Program-made: the position numbers and the translations under genes
Shown here: positions 8,175 through 59,967 of the stretch, in pieces
Numbering within the stretch: position 1 is the first letter of the stretch
How the letters are laid out: every line of letters starts with the position of its first letter
NCBI RefSeq assembly: GCF_014692495.1
Contig: NZ_JACOIJ010000016.1
Span: 1 to 64,000 of the forward strand
Reading direction: 5' to 3'
Source of the DNA: Sphingobacterium litopenaei
GTDB lineage: Bacteria; Bacteroidota; Bacteroidia; Sphingobacteriales; Sphingobacteriaceae
Length of the DNA stretch: 64,000 nucleotides
The notes under the pieces: generated by a model
Database searches by the model: none
The model's input: the letters and a program-made list of their open reading frames with translations, nothing else
Told to the model about the DNA's origin: nothing

Positions 8175-9209
8175 TTAATCCAAAGGCAAAGGATTCTCAT
8201 TAATATATTGTTCCCAAGCCCAAGCTGAAGACATCATTTCATCAATACCCAATTGTGCTTTCCAACCTAATTCTTTTGTTGACTTCGTCACATCACCCCA
8301 TACTTGGATCACATCCCCTTCACGACGAGGTCCAAATTCGTAATTCAAAGGCTTTCCTGAAGCCTTTTCAAAAGCTTTAATAGCCTCTAATACCGAATAA
8401 CCGTTACCAGTTCCAATATTGAAGACATCAAACTTACCATTTGGATTTCCTTTTTCTAACAATTTGATGGCCGCTACGTGAGCTTTCGCTAAATCTACCA
8501 CATGGATATAGTCACGAATACATGATCCATCAGGAGTATCGTAATCACTACCAAATACCGTTAATTTTTCGCGTTTACCAATTGCAGTCTGTGTAATGAA
8601 AGGCAACAAGTTTTGAGGAACACCATTTGGCAATTCACCGATCAAAGCCGTTTCATGCGCCCCTACTGGATTAAAGTAACGTAGAGCTACAATATTATAG
8701 TTGCCATACGCATTTGCTGTTTCTTCTAAGATTTCTTCAGCTATTTGCTTCGTGTTACCATATGGAGAAGTTGATTTCTTCACTGGCGCAGATTCTGTTA
8801 CAGGAAGAACATCAGGTTCACCATACACCGTACAGCTGGATGAAAACACAAAGTTGATAGGTTTTTCACGGTAGCTATTCAACAAGTTAATCAACGAAAA
8901 GAAATTGTTATGGTAATATTTTAACGGATCCACCACAGATTCCCCAACCGCTTTGGATGCTGCAAAATGAATAATTCCCGTGATATCTGGATTTGCTTCA
9001 ATGAAAGCTGTCGTCTTTGCTACATCACATAAATCAAACTGATGAAATTCTGGCTTAACACCAATGATTTTCTCAATTTGATCTAAAATTTTAATATTCG
9101 AATTCGATAGATTGTCAACGATTACTGGTGTATATCCCGCATTGTGTAATTCCACAACGGTATGCGAGCCTATGTACCCTGTACCCCCCGTTACTAAAAT
9201 TTTACTCAT
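8175..9209 (-). CDS. galE: UDP-glucose 4-epimerase
   Basis: A 344-residue extended short-chain dehydrogenase. It has the NAD-binding GGTGYIGS motif at residues 8-15, Ser in FSSSCTVYG near 124 and the catalytic YxxxK pair Y150/K154 in SPYGNTK. It interconverts UDP-glucose and UDP-galactose, supplying galactosyl donors for surface glycans, which fits the nearby glycosyltransferase and waaA genes. Length and motifs are those of an intact enzyme. Confidence 0.95.
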   Translation of the reverse strand: MSKILVTGGTGYIGSHTVVELHNAGYTPVIVDNLSNSNIKILDQIEKIIGVKPEFHQFDLCDVAKTTAFIEANPDITGIIHFAASKAVGESVVDPLKYYHNNFFSLINLLNSYREKPINFVFSSSCTVYGEPDVLPVTESAPVKKSTSPYGNTKQIAEEILEETANAYGNYNIVALRYFNPVGAHETALIGELPNGVPQNLLPFITQTAIGKREKLTVFGSDYDTPDGSCIRDYIHVVDLAKAHVAAIKLLEKGNPNGKFDVFNIGTGNGYSVLEAIKAFEKASGKPLNYEFGPRREGDVIQVWGDVTKSTKELGWKAQLGIDEMMSSAWAWEQYINENPLPLD

Positions 9210-9436
9210 AATCTTATATGTTACTATTTTGTTGTAAGCTTAGTGTTGAAAACGTGATGTTGGACAAATAAGGTTTTACCATCAGATTGCTGGAGTTCAT
9301 GCTAAACAAATATGCATATTTTTTAACTAGAATTAAAAATATATTCAAATATCTTCAGCGTCATCCCAAATTGTTCTTTCCTTATTGGGTAGCAAATTAT
9401 AGCTTGCCTCAATTCCACGTTTAGAAAAGGTTTAAT

Positions 9437-11901: not shown

Positions 11902-12927
11902 TTAAATGTAATTATTTTCATAATTGGCCAAAGATTTTTCTAATCTTCGTTTTATAAAATTTTTTAATCGAGGAGGAGAGATAACTTTTATATTTTCTCC
12001 AAAACCTAAAATCTCACGTTCTAATTCAAAGTTCAAAACCACATCTATGCGTATAATGATACTTCCATCTTCTCTTTTTTTGAGAATTTGTTGGGATGGA
12101 TGTATAGGCTTGGTTTCTACATAAGGAGCATTGTATGCATCTATTTCGAGAATGACACGTTGACCTCTGTCACGACTAGTTTTTGTAACACCGATGGTGT
12201 CTTCGAAATAACGTTCAAAATCTATTCCTTCGTAAGGTACAAATCCGGATTTTGCCATTTCTTCAATTTCAAGTATTCGATCTAAAGCCAAAGTTATTAA
12301 AACGGTTCCCTTTTTAGGTTTACAGATCAAAAACCAACGGTTTCGGTATTCCTTTAATAAGTAAGGAAAATAAACTTGTTGCGTTTCTGCTTTAGACTTG
12401 AAAGATTTGTAGGATATTAATAAGGGTATCTCGTCACGAATGGCTTTGTGTATTGCTGTAATCCACTCTAAACCTTTGAGTAGCTTATTGCTTTCTAATT
12501 GTATAGCTACTTTTTTATTTCCTTCGGATTTACTCAAATTGGACTCTAAACGAACAATCAAATCACTCATTTCTTCAAAATGAGTGAAACCATTCATATA
12601 TTTCAAAAAATCTACAGCATCTTTCATTTTACCTAAATCAGCATCAGTCATTGGAGAATTATTAATACTGTAACTAGGGTCTGAGTAAGTGTAGTATTTT
12701 CTATCTACCACCACAATTGGTGCATTATAAGCAAGCTTATTAGAACGCATAAACTGTATGTCACCTTGCACCGTTCGTTTGCTGACTCCAGATGTAATAC
12801 CCTCGTATTCATATAATGCATCTGCAATTTTTATCATCAAATCTTCCAATGTCCACTTTCTATGGCGCTGTCTGAGGAAGTGATCTATAGTTTTATAACG
12901 TATAAGTGCAAGTTTATTTACAGACAT
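11902..12927 (-). CDS. WYL-domain transcriptional regulator
   Basis: A 341-residue protein with an N-terminal winged helix (about 1-85, SKRTVQGDIQFMRSNKL), a WYL domain (about 150-230, with PYLLKEYRNRWFLIC) and a WYL C-terminal extension (about 260-335). WYL domains are ligand-sensing, and nucleic-acid fragments or nucleotides are proposed ligands. It is divergent from the SPFH-nucleotidyltransferase-RtcB operon, and matching inverted repeats lie before both transcription units, so it is the obvious regulator of that system. Its stop codon lies 18 bp from the hemW -7 box. Confidence 0.87.
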   Translation of the reverse strand: MSVNKLALIRYKTIDHFLRQRHRKWTLEDLMIKIADALYEYEGITSGVSKRTVQGDIQFMRSNKLAYNAPIVVVDRKYYTYSDPSYSINNSPMTDADLGKMKDAVDFLKYMNGFTHFEEMSDLIVRLESNLSKSEGNKKVAIQLESNKLLKGLEWITAIHKAIRDEIPLLISYKSFKSKAETQQVYFPYLLKEYRNRWFLICKPKKGTVLITLALDRILEIEEMAKSGFVPYEGIDFERYFEDTIGVTKTSRDRGQRVILEIDAYNAPYVETKPIHPSQQILKKREDGSIIIRIDVVLNFELEREILGFGENIKVISPPRLKNFIKRRLEKSLANYENNYI

Positions 12928-12979: not shown

Positions 12980-12998
12980 TACGCAAAGGACTTGCGTA
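12980..12998. promoter_or_regulatory. Probable WYL operator 1 (regulator side)
   Basis: An inverted repeat TACGCAA-N5-TTGCGTA, preceded by TTTTACT. It lies 53 bp upstream of the WYL start codon. The same arrangement recurs at 13113-13131, which supports a shared DNA-binding protein. Confidence 0.7.
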
Positions 12999-13112: not shown

Positions 13113-13131
13113 TGCGCAAAACTGTTGCGTA
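13113..13131. promoter_or_regulatory. Probable WYL operator 2 (RNA-repair operon side)
   Basis: TGCGCAA-N5-TTGCGTA, again preceded by TTTTACT. A promoter-like GACCTTTG (13134-13141) begins three bases after it, so the repeat occupies the -33/-7 region of a rightward promoter. Bound regulator could repress or help recruit polymerase. Confidence 0.65.
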
Positions 13132-13191
13132 TAGACCTTTGCATCTTTGTAATGTCAGCTAAGTTGAATGAGTTCTTTGATTATAATGAAG

Positions 13192-13524
13192 CGAAAAGCT
13201 TATAAAGATATGTGCACAAACGTGCACAAAGAAACCACAAAGCTCGAATGCTTGTCCTAGTCTCTTGTTTCTGTATAGCAAGATAGTGTTGATTCCATAG
13301 AATACAATATACTGACATAGCAAGAGGACAGTGGTGTTAATGCTAGGGTCGTAGGTTCGAATCCTACTTTTGTCATAGACGAAATAACTCAGTGGGTAGA
13401 GTATAGCCAAAAAAGGCGGGTTCGAGTCCCGCACACATCTGTCACATGTGTCATCGGTTGGAGGAACGAAAGTTCCATTTTTGAAGTTTAGACTTTCTTT
13501 CAAAAAGTCACCATAAGCTTTTCG
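13192..13524 (+). ncRNA. Candidate structured leader RNA with tRNA-like modules
   Basis: No protein-coding frame fits this stretch. It is bounded by a perfect 12-bp long-range pairing: CGAAAAGCTTAT (13192-13203) with ATAAGCTTTTCG (13513-13524). Inside lie a GTGCAC-AAAC-GTGCAC hairpin (13212-13227), a CTCTTG/CAAGAG helix (13262-13267 with 13321-13326), a permuted tRNA-like module (13341-13408), a second T-arm with a capped hairpin (13416-13451), and a GAAA-tetraloop hairpin GGAAC/GTTCC near 13464-13477. It follows operator 2 and precedes the RNA-repair operon, so it may be the operon leader or a separate small RNA. The nearest known analogue is the Y RNA found beside rsr and rtcB in Salmonella. 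Confidence 0.65.
13341..13408 (+). ncRNA. Circularly permuted tRNA-like module
   Basis: In order along the strand: GCTA (anticodon-stem 3' side), GGGTC (five-base variable loop), T-arm GTAGG-TTCGAAT-CCTAC, acceptor strand TTTTGTC (13368-13374), loop ATA, acceptor strand GACGAAA (13378-13384; seven pairs, one G-U), TA, D-arm ACTCAGTGGGTAGAGT (13387-13402), A, then TAGC pairing with the opening GCTA. Spacers of 5, 0, 2 and 1 equal those of real tRNA. The bases just upstream, TGTTAA (13335-13340), match the anticodon loop of tRNA-Asn (GUU). The acceptor stem is closed, so it cannot be charged as it stands. Confidence 0.78.
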
Positions 13525-14980: not shown

Positions 14981-15751
14981 ATGGAAATGAAAATAATATC
15001 AAGATTGAAGAAAATAGAAGAAAAGCACGGCATAGAAATATTGTTTGCTTGCGAATCTGGAAGTAGAGCTTGGGGTTTTCCATCAACAGATAGTGACTAT
15101 GATGTTCGTTTTATCTATAAAAGAAAGAAGGATCATTATATGACCGTATTTGAAGAATCTACTGAATTGGGGTTCGCCATAGTGGATGATTTGGATTTTG
15201 TAGGCTGGGACATCAAGAAAGTGTTTTTGCTACTTCATAAGAGTAATGTGACTCCATTTGAATGGTTGCAATCGCCTATAGTTTACTGTGAAAAGAAGGA
15301 TTTTAGAAACTATATGAAATCAGTTTCCCCAAATTTTTATGTGTCAAAAAGACATATACATCATTATTTGGGGATAGTTAAAGGTCGAATGGAAGCTGTA
15401 TCTTTTGAAGAAATGAAATTGAAATCTTTTTTTTATATCATGCGCTCTTTGCTTTCAGCTTATTGGAATATGAAATTTGGGACTTATGCGCCTATGGAGT
15501 TTGAACCTTTGATGACTTTGCTTCCGGAGAAAATAAAAGTATCATGTAAAGAGTTGAGAAGTCTGAAGTTAGAGCTTGAAGAAAGTTTTGTTTTTAATCT
15601 TTCAGATGAAATGAGAAAATTCATCATAGAATTACAAGACGAAATATGGACTTACGCCGATACTTTGGATGCAATGATAATAAGTAAAGAATTGGCAAAT
15701 GTTGGATTTTTAAAAATATTGGAAGATGACTATAGAAGCGCTTCGTGCTAA
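14981..15751 (+). CDS. Pol-beta-superfamily nucleotidyltransferase (COG3541-like), first copy
   Basis: A 256-residue minimal nucleotidyltransferase. The catalytic signature is GSRAWGFPSTDSDYD, with GS at 27-28 and the metal-binding Asp residues at 37, 39 and 41. The C-terminal half is helical. The family is predicted to add nucleotides to RNA ends. I chose ATG 14981 (a TTG-started extension from 14942 falls in the preceding hairpin loop). It overlaps the next gene by 26 bp. With the paired enzyme downstream and RtcB it forms an apparent RNA end-repair set. Confidence 0.85.
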   Translation: MEMKIISRLKKIEEKHGIEILFACESGSRAWGFPSTDSDYDVRFIYKRKKDHYMTVFEESTELGFAIVDDLDFVGWDIKKVFLLLHKSNVTPFEWLQSPIVYCEKKDFRNYMKSVSPNFYVSKRHIHHYLGIVKGRMEAVSFEEMKLKSFFYIMRSLLSAYWNMKFGTYAPMEFEPLMTLLPEKIKVSCKELRSLKLELEESFVFNLSDEMRKFIIELQDEIWTYADTLDAMIISKELANVGFLKILEDDYRSASC

Positions 15752-16781
15752 TGGATTAATACTTTTTGAAGTAGTAGCTGGTAGCCATGCTTATGGATTG
15801 GCTACTAAAGATTCGGACATGGATATAAAAGGTGTCTTCTATCTTCCTAAAGTCGATTTTTATTCGGGTGAATATATAGCACAAGTTGCGGATGAAAAAA
15901 ATGATGTGGTTTACTACGAGTTGGGTCGGTTTTTCGAACTCTTGTCCAAGAGTAATCCGAGTGCTTTGGAAATATTAGCAACCCCTATTGATTGTGTGAG
16001 ATATAAGCATCCTTTGATGGAAGATTTGAATATTCGAGATTGCCTTTCCTTGGAAGCTGTCAAGACATTTTCGAATTATGCAATGGTTCAGGTTCAAAAA
16101 GCAAAAGGTCTAAATAAGAAAATCAATAATCCGATAGCACGGGACAGAAAAACATTGTTAGATTTTTGCTATATTCTAGAAGGTAATGATGCCAAACCTT
16201 TTGTTCAATGGTTGGAAAATAAAGGTTGGGATCAGACCAATTGTGGATTAGCTAAATTGAATCATTGCAAAGGGACATACGGCTTGTATCATGACTCAAC
16301 AAATGGAAAGTATAAAGGAGTTTTAGCAAAACCTGATAGTTGTGACGTGTCCTGCTCATCCATACCTAAAGGTGAAAAATTGGAAGCTTATCTAGTGGTG
16401 AATCAAGATTCATTTGCACAGCATTGCAAGAATTATAAGGAATATTTTGATTGGGAATCTAATCGTAATGAAAAACGATTTCTTGCTAACTTGAACCATA
16501 ATACTGGATACGATGCCAAGAATATGATGCATACAATACGCCTGAAGGAAGTCGCTAATGATATATTGCTTCATAAAGATTTACGGGTTAAAAGGTCAAA
16601 TCGAGAAGAACTGCTTAAGATAAAATCTGGTTTATATACCTATGAAGAGTTACTAGATAAGGCTGTTACTCTGCAAGATGAAATAAATGAATTGAGTATC
16701 ACAAGTGAATTAAAAGAAACTTTAAATATAGAATTGTTGCGATCTATATTGGTTGAGATACGTACAATTTTGTACAATTAA
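15726..16781 (+). CDS. Pol-beta-superfamily nucleotidyltransferase, second copy
   Basis: A 351-residue protein with the same catalytic core (GSHAYGLATKDSDMD; GS at 19-20, Asp at 29, 31 and 33) but a longer C-terminal part with a Cys/His-containing insert (about 155-235; CDVSCSS and HC pairs) and helical tail. It is a divergent paralogue of the preceding enzyme, translationally coupled to it by a 26-bp overlap, so the two may form a heterodimer or act in sequence. Substrate inferred as RNA from the RtcB context. Confidence 0.84.
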   Translation: MTIEALRANGLILFEVVAGSHAYGLATKDSDMDIKGVFYLPKVDFYSGEYIAQVADEKNDVVYYELGRFFELLSKSNPSALEILATPIDCVRYKHPLMEDLNIRDCLSLEAVKTFSNYAMVQVQKAKGLNKKINNPIARDRKTLLDFCYILEGNDAKPFVQWLENKGWDQTNCGLAKLNHCKGTYGLYHDSTNGKYKGVLAKPDSCDVSCSSIPKGEKLEAYLVVNQDSFAQHCKNYKEYFDWESNRNEKRFLANLNHNTGYDAKNMMHTIRLKEVANDILLHKDLRVKRSNREELLKIKSGLYTYEELLDKAVTLQDEINELSITSELKETLNIELLRSILVEIRTILYN

Positions 16782-16794
16782 TGAGTTAGTATTA

Positions 16795-18216
16795 ATGGAA
16801 AATAAAAGAATAAATGGCAACGATTTGATTGCTTTAGGATATAAAGAAAATCATGCTATGGGAGTAGCATTGAAAATTAATAAAAAACGTTTGGGGCTCA
16901 CAAAAGAAGAGATGCTTCAAAAGTTTAAAGATGTATTAGAAACTCCTGAATCCTTTTTGGAAGATCCAACTTTTGAGCCTTTGGCGAATATCTTGCTAAA
17001 TATAGAAAAGATTGATGAAGAGCTGATTACACTGAATGATAAACCCAATGAATATACCGTCTATGGTGTAGAGAATATTGAGGAAGGTGCTAAAGATCAA
17101 ATGAATGTAGCTATGACGCTTCCTGTAACTGTTGCAGGAGCCTTGATGCCCGATGCGCATCAAGGATATGGATTGCCCATTGGTGGTGTGTTGGCTACCA
17201 AAAATGCGATTATTCCTTACGGTGTAGGTGTGGATATTGGTTGTCGAATGGCGTTATCAGTTTTTGATTTACCTGCTAATTATTTAGATTTAGAACATCA
17301 TAAATTGAAGAAAATCTTAATCGACAACACCAAATTTGGTGCAGGTCATGGTTTTTTAAAGCACGAACGCTCGGATCATGCTGTATTGGATAACTCCTTG
17401 TTTGAAACTAATGCTTTCATTCGAGAATTGAAGGACAAGGCATGGACGCAATTGGGTACTTCTGGAGGAGGTAATCACTTTGTGGAATTTGGGGTAATGG
17501 AGTTCAAAGAGAAGGATGAGGTTTTAAATATTGAAAAAGGTTCTTATTTGGCATTATTGACACATTCAGGTTCTCGAGGAATGGGAGCTACCATAGCAGA
17601 TCATTATACCAAATTGGCAAAGGAATTATGTAAGTTACCTTTCAAAGCACAAAATTTGGCCTACTTAGATTTGGATTCTGAGGCAGGACATGAATATTGG
17701 TTGGCGATGAATTTGGCTGGTGATTATGCTTCTGCTTGTCATGAAATGATTCATGTTAAAATAAAATCAGCCTTAGGAGCTGAATTATTAGCCAAAGTAG
17801 AAAACCACCATAATTTTGCTTGGAAAGAGCAAATCAATGGTGAAGAAGTGATCGTACATCGTAAAGGGGCTACACCTGCTTCCAAAGACGTTATGGGAAT
17901 TATCCCGGGTTCTATGGCTACACCAGGATTTTTGGTACGTGGAAAAGGTGAGGAAACTTCTATTAATTCGGCATCACATGGTGCAGGACGGCTTATGAGC
18001 CGTACAAAAGCTATAAAGACATTACGTAAAAATGATCTTAAGACATTGTTGTCAGATCATGGCATTACCTTAATCGGAGCAGGAATGGATGAAGCACCTA
18101 TGGCGTATAAAGATATTCATACGGTGATGTCAGCTCAAAAGGATTTAGTGAATATTGTAGCTACTTTCTCGCCAAAAATTGTTCGGATGGCCGATGATGG
18201 TTCTCGTGAAGATTGA
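16795..18216 (+). CDS. rtcB: RNA-splicing ligase RtcB
   Basis: A 473-residue enzyme joining RNA 3'-phosphate or 2',3'-cyclic phosphate ends to 5'-OH ends with GTP and Mn2+. All key motifs are present: DAHQGYGLPIGG (about 120-131), metal Cys150 in VGVDIGCRM, His228 in GGGNHFVEFG, His257 in HSGSRGMG, His338/339 in ENHHNFAW, and the guanylylated His395 in SHGAGRLMSR. I chose ATG 16795 over a TTG at 16753. It ends the operon at a strong terminator. No rtcA or archease gene is nearby, so a partner for multiple turnover is not visible. Confidence 0.95.
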   Translation: MENKRINGNDLIALGYKENHAMGVALKINKKRLGLTKEEMLQKFKDVLETPESFLEDPTFEPLANILLNIEKIDEELITLNDKPNEYTVYGVENIEEGAKDQMNVAMTLPVTVAGALMPDAHQGYGLPIGGVLATKNAIIPYGVGVDIGCRMALSVFDLPANYLDLEHHKLKKILIDNTKFGAGHGFLKHERSDHAVLDNSLFETNAFIRELKDKAWTQLGTSGGGNHFVEFGVMEFKEKDEVLNIEKGSYLALLTHSGSRGMGATIADHYTKLAKELCKLPFKAQNLAYLDLDSEAGHEYWLAMNLAGDYASACHEMIHVKIKSALGAELLAKVENHHNFAWKEQINGEEVIVHRKGATPASKDVMGIIPGSMATPGFLVRGKGEETSINSASHGAGRLMSRTKAIKTLRKNDLKTLLSDHGITLIGAGMDEAPMAYKDIHTVMSAQKDLVNIVATFSPKIVRMADDGSRED

Positions 18217-22805: not shown

Positions 22806-23633
22806 TTATATAGAATTATTAAAACCTTTATATATATCTTTTAATGCTTTTACAACACTTTCAATAGTTGAATCATCATTTAAAGGATTAACCATTAATC
22901 GAACAAATGCACTATTTTCTTCCTTTTGTATATGCTTTTCTAAAATATTATTAAGTCTTTTTACTAAACCCTCATTGCTACTTGCAATTTTTCTCATTTC
23001 TCTCCCTAATACAATTGGTCCGATGCTTTCGAAAACTATATTTTTTGTTTCATCAAATAAATCGTTATGATGTTGATATATCATTTCATCATTTAATGTA
23101 AAAAAATGGACAACTAGATTCGAGATGTCAGTAGCATCCTTTTGACGATGTTCGGGTCTATCATCGTAAGCAATAAACTTGAGTAAGGCTATTGCAGGTA
23201 ATGTTGCTACTTTGAATGAATGTCCAGTCTCAAATTCTACATCTTCTATCCCATTATTATATACATCTATTAATCCATCTACACGAATACTGGTCATTCC
23301 TTGTCCATTAACAGTGACACTTCCATCATCTTCAATTTCACCAAATGGTAAAATGTCCACTTGCGTACCATCTGGAGCAATTAGAACAAATGCATTACCT
23401 CTATATGGTGTAAATTTTTCAGTATCTATAAGATACGCTCTGATCCGCTGGTACTCATCTTCATTACACACCAATACAGCATAATCAACATCTTTTGTTG
23501 TTCTAAAACTCATGTTACCTTTTTCGTACCATACTTGTCTAGCTAATGCGCCTATTAAGTAAAAGTCTATATTTAATTGATTAAAGCTGCGCTCCACTAT
23601 ATCAAATATATGTTTAAGTTCTCCGTGTCTCAT
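22806..23633 (-). CDS. AbiEii-like nucleotidyltransferase (toxin)
   Basis: A 275-residue protein of the DNA-polymerase-beta nucleotidyltransferase fold: LIGALARQ (25-32), then TTKDVDYAV (45-53) giving the DxD pair at 48 and 50, and a third acidic position in GTQVDILPFG near 91. The helical C-terminus is typical of AbiEii/AbiGii toxins, which in type IV systems transfer nucleotides onto RNA and cause phage-induced growth arrest. It follows its partner by one base. Confidence 0.78.
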   Translation of the reverse strand: MRHGELKHIFDIVERSFNQLNIDFYLIGALARQVWYEKGNMSFRTTKDVDYAVLVCNEDEYQRIRAYLIDTEKFTPYRGNAFVLIAPDGTQVDILPFGEIEDDGSVTVNGQGMTSIRVDGLIDVYNNGIEDVEFETGHSFKVATLPAIALLKFIAYDDRPEHRQKDATDISNLVVHFFTLNDEMIYQHHNDLFDETKNIVFESIGPIVLGREMRKIASSNEGLVKRLNNILEKHIQKEENSAFVRLMVNPLNDDSTIESVVKALKDIYKGFNNSI

Positions 23634-23634
23634 A

Positions 23635-24645
23635 TTAGGAAAAATCTGCTTTTAAATAACTGTCAAAAATCGATTCTGCAACCTCTATATTTCTTGGATC
23701 TTGACTAATGATTAAATCAGCATAAATTAATATTGGTGGCGCACAGTATTTCTCTAAATTATACGCTTCTTGCCAAAAATGCTGTATGATTTCAATATCA
23801 CCTTTAGAGTCTGGTACAAGCATCATTTTTGTCATAAGCTCCATCTTCGATAATTTGGTGTAAAGTGTTTTTATTTCGGGTTCAATATAATTTGACATTA
23901 TGTTCGCACCAGCTTCTCCTCCCCATACATCACCAGGTGCAAGTTGTTGCTCTTTCCAATATTTATTATTTTTTAAAAACCGATAGCGCCCTACCATTAG
24001 TTTTGGTTTCAAGGTCTCGCCATAGCCTGTAATCCATCGGTCTAGTAGCTCTCGTTTACGAGTTATTATATATTTATTTCTATTTTTAGCGATTAGATAA
24101 CCGGCTTCTTGTAAATTATTTATAACTAAAGGAACGTTGCCTAGTGCTACATTTGCTCGATGAGCAATTTCCCTATAAGACATATTTAAAGCGTTCTTTT
24201 CAGTAAGCAATAAAAAGACTATTTTAAGTCCAGTAGGAGTAAATGCTCTGTTAGGTTTTTCTTTTTCCACTGTTGGTATTCTGTTTCCCTCAATAAAAAT
24301 ATAGCAGCTCTCGTTCCGGAAATAAAAATTTCCAGCTATATCTAAATACGCTATATTTTCATTTCTTAGCATTTCCTTAGCTTTAGGAAAAATGTTTTGT
24401 GCTAAGAGTAAGAACATATCATTTACGTTAGCACGAGCTTTAATTAGTTCTATATGTGTGTGGCGGATTTCTTTCTTTATGTCCGTTTTAAAACTAATTC
24501 TATTTTCGCCTAAAGAAATTGTCAATATTCCATCTATTCCTGTATTTTTAGTATGTTCTAAGAATTCCCACTCTCCATATATACCCGCTACATTTTGGAG
24601 ATTGTTCAATGCTTTATTTACCGTCTTGATTTCCTGTTGAGACAT
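23635..24645 (-). CDS. AbiEi-like antitoxin with winged helix
   Basis: A 336-residue protein annotated in this family as type IV toxin-antitoxin AbiEi-type. It has an N-terminal nuclease-like or beta domain (about 1-125), a winged helix (about 130-200, SYREIAHRANVALGNVPLVI), and a C-terminal domain with the GGEAGANIMSNYIEP motif. Such antitoxins bind operator repeats and repress their own operon. A 17-bp palindrome lies directly before the start codon. It is the first gene of a two-gene minus-strand operon. Confidence 0.77.
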   Translation of the reverse strand: MSQQEIKTVNKALNNLQNVAGIYGEWEFLEHTKNTGIDGILTISLGENRISFKTDIKKEIRHTHIELIKARANVNDMFLLLAQNIFPKAKEMLRNENIAYLDIAGNFYFRNESCYIFIEGNRIPTVEKEKPNRAFTPTGLKIVFLLLTEKNALNMSYREIAHRANVALGNVPLVINNLQEAGYLIAKNRNKYIITRKRELLDRWITGYGETLKPKLMVGRYRFLKNNKYWKEQQLAPGDVWGGEAGANIMSNYIEPEIKTLYTKLSKMELMTKMMLVPDSKGDIEIIQHFWQEAYNLEKYCAPPILIYADLIISQDPRNIEVAESIFDSYLKADFS

Positions 24646-59894: not shown

Positions 59895-59967
59895 GCGAAA
59901 GTAGCTCAGTTGGTAGAGCACAACCTTGCCAAGGTTGGGGTCGCGAGTTCGAATCTCGTCTTTCGCT
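59895..59967 (+). tRNA. tRNA-Gly (GCC)
   Basis: A full 73-nt cloverleaf: acceptor GCGAAAG / CTTTCGC, D-arm GCTC-AGTTGGTA-GAGC, anticodon arm CAACC-TTGCCAA-GGTTG with anticodon GCC, variable loop GGGTC, T-arm GCGAG-TTCGAAT-CTCGT, discriminator T. The CCA end is not encoded. It is a useful contrast to the permuted tRNA-like module at 13341-13408. Confidence 0.97.

Follow-up and report, generated by a model that had tools for sequence, protein, structure and literature searches.

A putative tandem tRNA-mimic RNA conserved upstream of slipin genes in Bacteroidota

Why should the leader of an RNA-repair operon carry the parts of a tRNA in permuted order? The question is raised by a stretch of 64,000 nucleotides from Sphingobacterium litopenaei (hereafter the window), in which a first-pass annotation had noted a circularly permuted tRNA-like element before an operon for the RNA ligase RtcB. 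We found every part of the element in its reported place, letter for letter. The genes around it (Table 1) include those for an RNA ligase, RlaP-type nucleotidyltransferases and a neighbouring regulator, the combination by which RNA-repair operons are recognized. The slipin has a maximum 19-residue hydropathy of 1.28, and among NCBIfam models it matched those of HflK/HflC, under their cut-offs. In a search with a defence library, the WYL protein was the sole match (two WYL models and one Cas3c model). Farther along the window lies an AbiEi/AbiEii-type toxin-antitoxin pair (22806-24645).

Table 1. Features of the leader and its flanking genes in the window.
Feature	Position	Strand	Basis
WYL/WCX regulator gene, divergent	11902..12927	-	Pfam WYL 36.8 bits, WCX 50.8 bits
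Palindrome TACGCAA-N5-TTGCGTA, predicted WYL operator, WYL side	12980..12998	.	genome and relatives scan
Palindrome TGCGCAA-N5-TTGCGTA, predicted operator of RNA promoter	13113..13131	.	genome and relatives scan
Predicted promoter -7 region/start TTTGTAATGTC	13146..13156	+	similar to relatives by eye; inference
boxA-like GAGTTCTTTGA, predicted antitermination element	13170..13180	+	motif in relatives
Conserved 5' domain: GTTTCTGTATAGC hairpin and AGTGTTG/CAATATACT helix	13267..13314	+	RNAalifold on A2
Module 1, permuted tRNA-like module	13342..13407	+	comparison, parse, YrlA match
Anticodon (AC) stem 3' side GCTA	13342-13345	+	sequence
Variable loop GGGTC	13346-13350	+	sequence
T-arm GTAGG-TTCGAAT-CCTAC	13351-13367	+	pairs 5/5
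Acceptor 3' strand TTTTGTC	13368-13374	+	sequence
Acceptor cap loop ATA	13375-13377	+	sequence
Acceptor 5' strand GACGAAA	13378-13384	+	pairs 7/7, one G-U
TA spacer	13385-13386	+	sequence
D-arm ACTC-AGTGGGTA-GAGT	13387-13402	+	pairs 4/4
Single A between D-arm and AC stem	13403	+	sequence
AC stem 5' side TAGC	13404-13407	+	pairs 4/4
Module 2: T-arm and capped acceptor	13416..13451 (T-arm 13416-13432; acceptor 13433-13438/13446-13451)	+	parse, pair counts
GGAAC-GAAA-GTTCC hairpin, then ATTTTTG, in place of module 2 anticodon arm (window clade)	13463..13476	+	sequence, terminator scan
Predicted hairpin/H-type pseudoknot 3' of module 2	13483..13509	+	scan
Slipin (SPFH/Band_7), no predicted membrane helix	13824..14912	+	Pfam Band_7 102.2 bits
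RlaP nucleotidyltransferase 1 (start codon by eye)	14981..15751	+	Pfam RlaP 205.3 bits; 21/80 best-of-570 loci
RlaP nucleotidyltransferase 2	15726..16781	+	Pfam RlaP 69.6 bits; 23/80 best-of-570 loci
RtcB RNA ligase (start codon by eye)	16795..18216	+	Pfam RtcB 286.2 bits; 71/80 best-of-570 loci

The spacers of the element (5, 0, 2 and 1 nucleotides) equal those of a tRNA. It had been described as a single element spanning 13341..13408. The module is indeed present, as one of two consecutive modules, and the would-be fifth AC pair 13341/13408 is an unpaired T-C. Its emergence by chance had been judged very unlikely, and our counts agree. With the T-arm fixed and the base composition of the leader, the remaining helices and spacers appeared in 8 of 200,000 random flanks. 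Among the 80 best of 570 relative loci, both strands considered, the full permuted arrangement surrounded 56 of 253 T-loop motifs in the zone before slipin and 0 of 5561 elsewhere, and within the window this site is the only one.

We examined whether the site could be an ordinary tRNA. ARAGORN detected no tRNA at the leader site, and the Rfam tRNA model scored 21.9-23.1 bits there, under its threshold of 29. At Rfam gathering scores, a tRNA-Gly at 59895 is the only match that passes in the window, with none at the leader. The site does not form a canonical cloverleaf with a decoding anticodon and a free 3' end; the acceptor bears a cap loop, and we saw neither a conserved anticodon nor a CCA in the module. 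The single-sequence minimum-energy fold of the host leader contained the T, acceptor and D helices; the AC strand paired upstream instead and T-arm 2 was absent, so that the complete module 1 rests on comparison.

Relatives were collected with the slipin gene as anchor. A total of 570 were confirmed and the best 80 taken as loci, a choice that tilts the set toward close relatives; these came from Sphingobacterium, Pedobacter, Taibaiella, Emticicia, Saprospiraceae, Chryseolinea, Flavobacterium and others. The slipin of S. cavernae (L032) is 100% identical to that of the host, and 34 of 201 genomes of the family have a slipin match at E 1e-20. A structural parser recognized two consecutive modules in 70 of these best 80 loci. 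In some Sphingobacterium loci (L044, L045, L048, L050 and others) three modules stand in a row. Among the 70 copies of module 1, the T-loop TTCRA and the D-loop GG are present in all 70, U8-A9 in 63 and R15-Y48 in 67, while the helices vary, the acceptor occurring in 42 versions and the AC stem in 24. The acceptor cap measures 3-8 nucleotides (4 in 42 of the 70 copies) and is a GNRA tetraloop in 22.

A MAFFT alignment (A1) was made of 33 sequences, that is 35 non-redundant loci minus L043 and L049, whose modules were mis-registered; A2 and A3 contain 31 rows each, L094 and L098 being excluded. When the permuted structure, which leans toward itself because it was derived from the parsed modules, was laid over A1, 92.0% of 1111 cells paired, compared with 70.9% in shuffles. 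Changes on both sides were seen in 28 of 34 pairs (23.0 in shuffles) and in 245 cells (72.4 in shuffles); the first-pass annotation had staked its reading on such covariation. Moving the partners by 1-3 columns lowered pairing to 40-47%. RNAalifold, unprompted, returned from A1 the module-1 helices together with the T and acceptor helices of module 2 (30 pairs, 25 changed on both sides). On the other hand, the upstream TGTTAA, previously taken as a match to a tRNA-Asn anticodon loop, is present in only one of the 31 rows of A2 (L032) and is therefore not conserved.

These alignments bear on the possibility that the modules are eroded or rearranged tRNA genes, or tRNA-like elements of ordinary order, that happen to lie beside the operon. 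Parts of the RNA do score as tRNA in Rfam, and in some relatives, read in ordinary order, they exceed the threshold (29.4-36.9 bits); flavobacterial copies adjoin real tRNA arrays. However, the compensatory changes in the permuted fold largely refute this explanation. We also tried pairing the acceptor strands in ordinary tRNA order and rejected it: of 33 loci, 28 paired better in the permuted order, 5 equally well in both and none better in the ordinary one, in a comparison that leans toward the permuted order as the parser itself had picked permuted pairs. Complete pairing in ordinary order was found in 3 of the 33 loci, against 29 for the permuted module-1 acceptor. Taking into account also the GNRA caps and the fixed slipin neighbour, we regard pseudogenes as highly improbable.

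How constant is that neighbour? A covariance model, R1, was built from the RNA and applied with a cut-off of E 1e-6 before slipin. It matched in 78 of the 80 best-of-570 loci, and 69 of the 78 scored at least 89 bits, including 36 outside the model-building set. Neither RtcB nor WYL is present in the fetched stretch of the two loci lacking a match (L051 and L110). All of the RtcB-bearing loci among the 80 carry the RNA, and a WYL gene is present in 62 of the 80. We then searched from the RNA itself, in 395 Bacteroidota genomes with strict filters under which weak matches are lost. R1 passed E 1e-4 in 305 of the 395, mostly, we presume, at ordinary tRNAs, and for this reason we took as criterion the gap in bit scores: 16 genomes, the host included, scored 90-118 bits, and the next score was 68. 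In all 15 of the other genomes scoring at least 90 bits, slipin lies next to the RNA on the same strand and starts about 250-530 nucleotides past the end of the match. Five matches of 62-68 bits were checked; one (L161) had slipin, and four had none of the five operon proteins. Thus the association with an RtcB operon first proposed holds at this locus, where RtcB lies downstream, but the constant neighbour in the RNA-first loci is slipin (15/15) rather than RtcB, which was in the fetched stretch of only 5. The comparisons among these genomes give good support to a covarying fold, its tandem arrangement and its constant slipin neighbour in Bacteroidota, and they point to a new tRNA-mimic RNA, tandem and widely conserved, that is linked to slipin and, among near relatives, mostly also to RtcB.

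The other neighbours vary. An RLIG1-type RNA ligase lies upstream in 2 of the 15 RNA-first loci (L142 and L154), and in 8 no RNA ligase was found among the part of the ORFs scanned. RNase_T is near the RNA in L142 and L143, where RtcB is absent, and L161 has the T4-type RNA ligase Rnl1 and the polynucleotide kinase PNKP. Among 20 hand-picked neighbour proteins, 7 were repair-type or nuclease/phosphoesterase (RLIG1 twice, RNase_T twice, Metallophos, Rnl1 and PNKP), 5 had no family, and the rest were TPR, glyoxalase, thioredoxin-like, RNase-H-like and AAA/DUF4143 proteins. Tandem modules beside repair enzymes that differ with lineage suggest a shared scaffold with exchangeable clients. ARAGORN found same-strand tRNA genes up to about 3.2 kb upstream in 12 of the 15 genomes, as many as 16 of them in L153. 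In the seven arrays tallied, hardly any anticodon is repeated. Within L142-L156, the arrays are most marked in L153, L156 and L148.

The neighbourhood also bears on the idea of a permuted tRNA gene from which RtcB, by joining the ends at the anticodon loop, would produce a working tRNA. Circularly permuted tRNA genes are known in algae and archaea and yield decoding tRNAs. As in those genes, the 3' half precedes the 5' half, and an RtcB gene is at hand. However, the leader RNA differs from them in its capped acceptor and in having no conserved anticodon. Because the acceptor strands are linked by 3-8 nucleotides, often as a GNRA loop, and no conserved anticodon or CCA was seen, a precursor of a rejoined tRNA, as the first-pass annotation had considered, is unlikely; with RtcB absent from the fetched stretch in 10 of the 15 RNA-first loci, we give a working tRNA very little credence.

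Among known RNAs, the nearest is the bacterial Y RNA YrlA. The YrlA model (RF02553) gave the sole significant Rfam match at the site (13343-13406; 33.8 bits against a threshold of 69), covering model positions 23-85 of 114, the tRNA-like domain alone. It also matched 15 of the 16 loci scoring at least 90 bits with R1 (host included) at 29.8-47.4 bits, the 16th giving no match at E 0.05, and a few relatives aligned with the model end to end at low score. Flavo-1 and tmRNA matches occurred in a few relatives, all below threshold; in L123, a Flavo-1 match (1234-1307, 36 bits against 42) lies near the permuted RNA. Together with the covariation, the match bears out the suggested likeness to the tRNA-like domain of bacterial Y RNAs: both have a permuted domain of T-arm, capped acceptor and D-arm, with an anticodon-side stem opening into the remaining RNA. 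They differ in that the leader RNA has two (1-3) tandem modules and that slipin, with no Ro60 gene found in the genome, is its constant neighbour. Indeed, as had been supposed, no Ro60/Rsr (TROVE) protein was found in the host genome, and 2 of 40 genomes searched have one. By analogy, the leader RNA would act like the tRNA-like half of a Y RNA, yet by score it falls outside the Rfam YrlA family.

According to the accessible parts of two reports, rsr and Y RNA genes sit within RNA-repair operons of some bacteria (PMC8394870, PMC7790460), and the basal stem of YrlA tethers the Ro60 relative Rsr while its tRNA-like domain binds PNPase (PMC8394870). The rsr-yrlBA-rtcBA operons with RtcR resemble the present locus in combining an RNA ligase, a tRNA-like RNA and a dedicated regulator, and in Citrobacter a slipin-nucleotidyltransferase pair adjoins rtcR (L180 2732-5894, rtcR being divergent). 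In the host, by contrast, WYL and slipin take the places of RtcR and Rsr, and RlaP enzymes are present. A further parallel is found in Anabaena, where, from the accessible text of PMC10272220, one regulator (TrcR) represses the slipin gene alr0740, rtcB and a 26-gene tRNA operon (the L-array/trn operon), and translational stress relieves the repression. There, too, a tRNA operon, rtcB and a slipin gene are under one regulator, but the loci are scattered, the regulator is of another type, and that text mentions no tRNA-mimic RNA. The literature searched, as far as its text was accessible, has no description of the leader RNA or of a slipin-associated RNA, although mention in Chen 2014 (bacterial Y RNAs) or Burroughs and Aravind 2016 is possible; the text of a study of prokaryotic SPFH proteins (PMC2636767) contains no slipin, vault, RtcB, nucleotidyltransferase or RNA.

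How, then, is the RNA expressed? The palindrome TRCGCAR-N5-YTGCGYA has two exact sites in the 3.85-Mb host genome (12980 and 13113), both between the WYL and slipin genes. Allowing one mismatch added four sites, against three for the backwards control. In the 80 best-of-570 loci, the 1.5 kb preceding slipin contain 72 sites, against 15 elsewhere (854 kb), and 58 of the 80 have at least one copy. WYL is their predicted binding protein. The same palindrome stands before RtcB or the next downstream gene in L145, L147 and L143 (+2166, +1839 and +2305 from the RNA), which suggests a small regulon. The RNA had been suggested as a ligand for WYL; with palindromes flanking both WYL and the predicted RNA promoter, nothing demands this. 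An E. coli-type promoter scan of the leader gave 1 hit against 3.7 in shuffles, for a promoter class not expected in this host. Following the palindrome, 53 of 78 leaders (of the 80 best-of-570 loci) carry a boxA-like motif of GTTCTTT type, and 16S leaders carry AGTTCTTTAA in the 4 readable of 5 16S loci. The site is a predicted antiterminator here.

Several other elements surround the modules. The conserved 5' domain has 11 pairs, 7 of them changed on both sides (RNAalifold, A2). A pseudoknot 3' of module 2 is suggested by a noisy scan, with a mean score of 21.4 compared with 12.0 in shuffles and 14.5 in the next window, and 2 of 32 sequences without a solution; its S2 pairs covary by eye in several loci and are indistinct in the window clade. 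We rejected a long-range closing stem (13188-13203/13513-13526): the minimum-energy fold shows it strongly, but own strands gave -28.5 and swapped strands -28.1 in 17 Sphingobacterium loci. The D/anticodon part of module 2 is no longer recognizable in the window's clade. The GAAA hairpin found there (GAAAC-GAAA-GTTTC in L041) is terminator-like, being followed directly by ATTTTTG, and the two (13463-13482) could attenuate the transcript just past module 2.

Such attenuation would suit a cis-regulatory leader. The operon downstream would then be controlled through the action on the modules of a tRNA-binding protein (RtcB, slipin or a processing enzyme) or of a nuclease that cleaves tRNA. The thrS operator, which mimics tRNA, is a precedent. 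The distance and orientation of slipin in all 15 RNA-first loci agree with this, as does the excess of terminator-like sites in the leader (4 against 0.3 in shuffles), of which the GAAA hairpin is one, and slipin may be merely a neighbour, with the RNA acting in cis on its mRNA. However, an operator would need neither two or three copies in tandem nor a boxA-like site, no element coupling the modules to a ribosome-binding site was seen, and YrlA, the nearest relative, is a free RNA. We therefore consider a purely cis-acting role rather unlikely.

The modules might also be decoys or sacrificial substrates: by binding nucleases or toxins that target tRNA, or by being cut in place of tRNAs, they would protect the latter, next to a ligase and spare tRNAs. 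A stem with a 7-nucleotide loop follows the module 2 D-arm in 39 of 76 loci, against 183 of 1520 shuffles, and some of these loops are Lys-, Leu- or Asn-like; tRNA arrays lie upstream; and competitive inhibition has been proposed for YrlA in the accessible part of PMC7790460. Nevertheless, these loops show no conserved sequence, module 1 lacks an anticodon loop, module 2 of the window has a GAAA tetraloop instead, and Salmonella YrlA fragments were undetected according to the same part of PMC7790460. Protection of this kind is improbable in our view.

The interpretation that we favour, at a confidence just short of even, is that the leader is a conserved element, presumably a noncoding RNA, that would contribute the RNA half to a Y-RNA-like particle free of Ro60 and based on slipin. 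A partnership of the RNA with slipin in the handling of damaged tRNAs is likely. WYL is predicted to act on the palindromes, and the boxA-like site to keep RNA polymerase going along the long untranslated leader; RNA and repair genes would thus be made together under stress. The slipin is an SPFH protein with no membrane helix predicted; in this model it would assemble into a ring or cage in which the RNA is held. Repair enzymes that bind tRNA would dock at the tRNA-like elbows, where T-loop meets D-loop, or cleaved tRNAs would be held there, much in the way that YrlA links Ro60 to an effector. Translation would be closed to the mimic by its capped acceptor and its open or non-decoding anticodon end. 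The particle model as a whole is an inference. If it is true, tRNA-mimic noncoding RNAs belong to bacterial RNA repair without Ro60, slipin gains a concrete partner and role, and E. coli offers a genetic handle on the role of tRNA mimics in RNA repair.

Slipin relatives were also found in nine records of a plasmid collection (Subdoligranulum, Photobacterium, E. coli, Citrobacter and Burkholderia) and, at the sensitivity used, in no viral contigs or phages. The leaders of five loci outside Bacteroidota were inspected by eye. Those of E. coli, Citrobacter and Subdoligranulum have a T-arm followed by a capped acceptor hairpin of differing sequence; in E. coli and Citrobacter four of five T-arm pairs form and no clear D-arm was seen. 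The tRNA-like elements of Photobacterium and Burkholderia are apparently unpermuted. R1 scored 16-48 bits in the five loci, cmscan gave no YrlA match at E 0.05, and in minimum-energy folds of the E. coli leader the acceptor hairpin forms and the T-arm does not; homology of these leaders to the Bacteroidota RNA is thus likely but not proven. The E. coli slipin and leader are present in 1624 of 5426 complete genomes (approximately 30%), 1621 of them covering at least 80% of the query, and the records inspected have no annotation over the leader.

A broader and doubtful model would place the system alongside the vault and the Ro60-Y RNA particle as their bacterial counterpart. The slipin, soluble and with three vault-type repeats in a stack, would cage the tandem tRNA-mimic RNA; the two would form the core of a tRNA-damage island with spare tRNAs and interchangeable RNA ligases, spread over Bacteroidota, Bacillota and Pseudomonadota, about 30% of complete E. 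coli genomes included. The vault particle (MVP) is characterized by beta repeats with an SPFH-like shoulder and a cap helix, in a closed cage with vault RNA. In one E. coli locus (L183 6001-8273), the leader with its T-arm-like and acceptor-like hairpin precedes a slipin-nucleotidyltransferase pair, which an annotated zeta toxin family protein (8309-9235) adjoins. A sigma-54-like TGGCAC-N5-TCGCA site was noticed by eye upstream of the E. coli leader.
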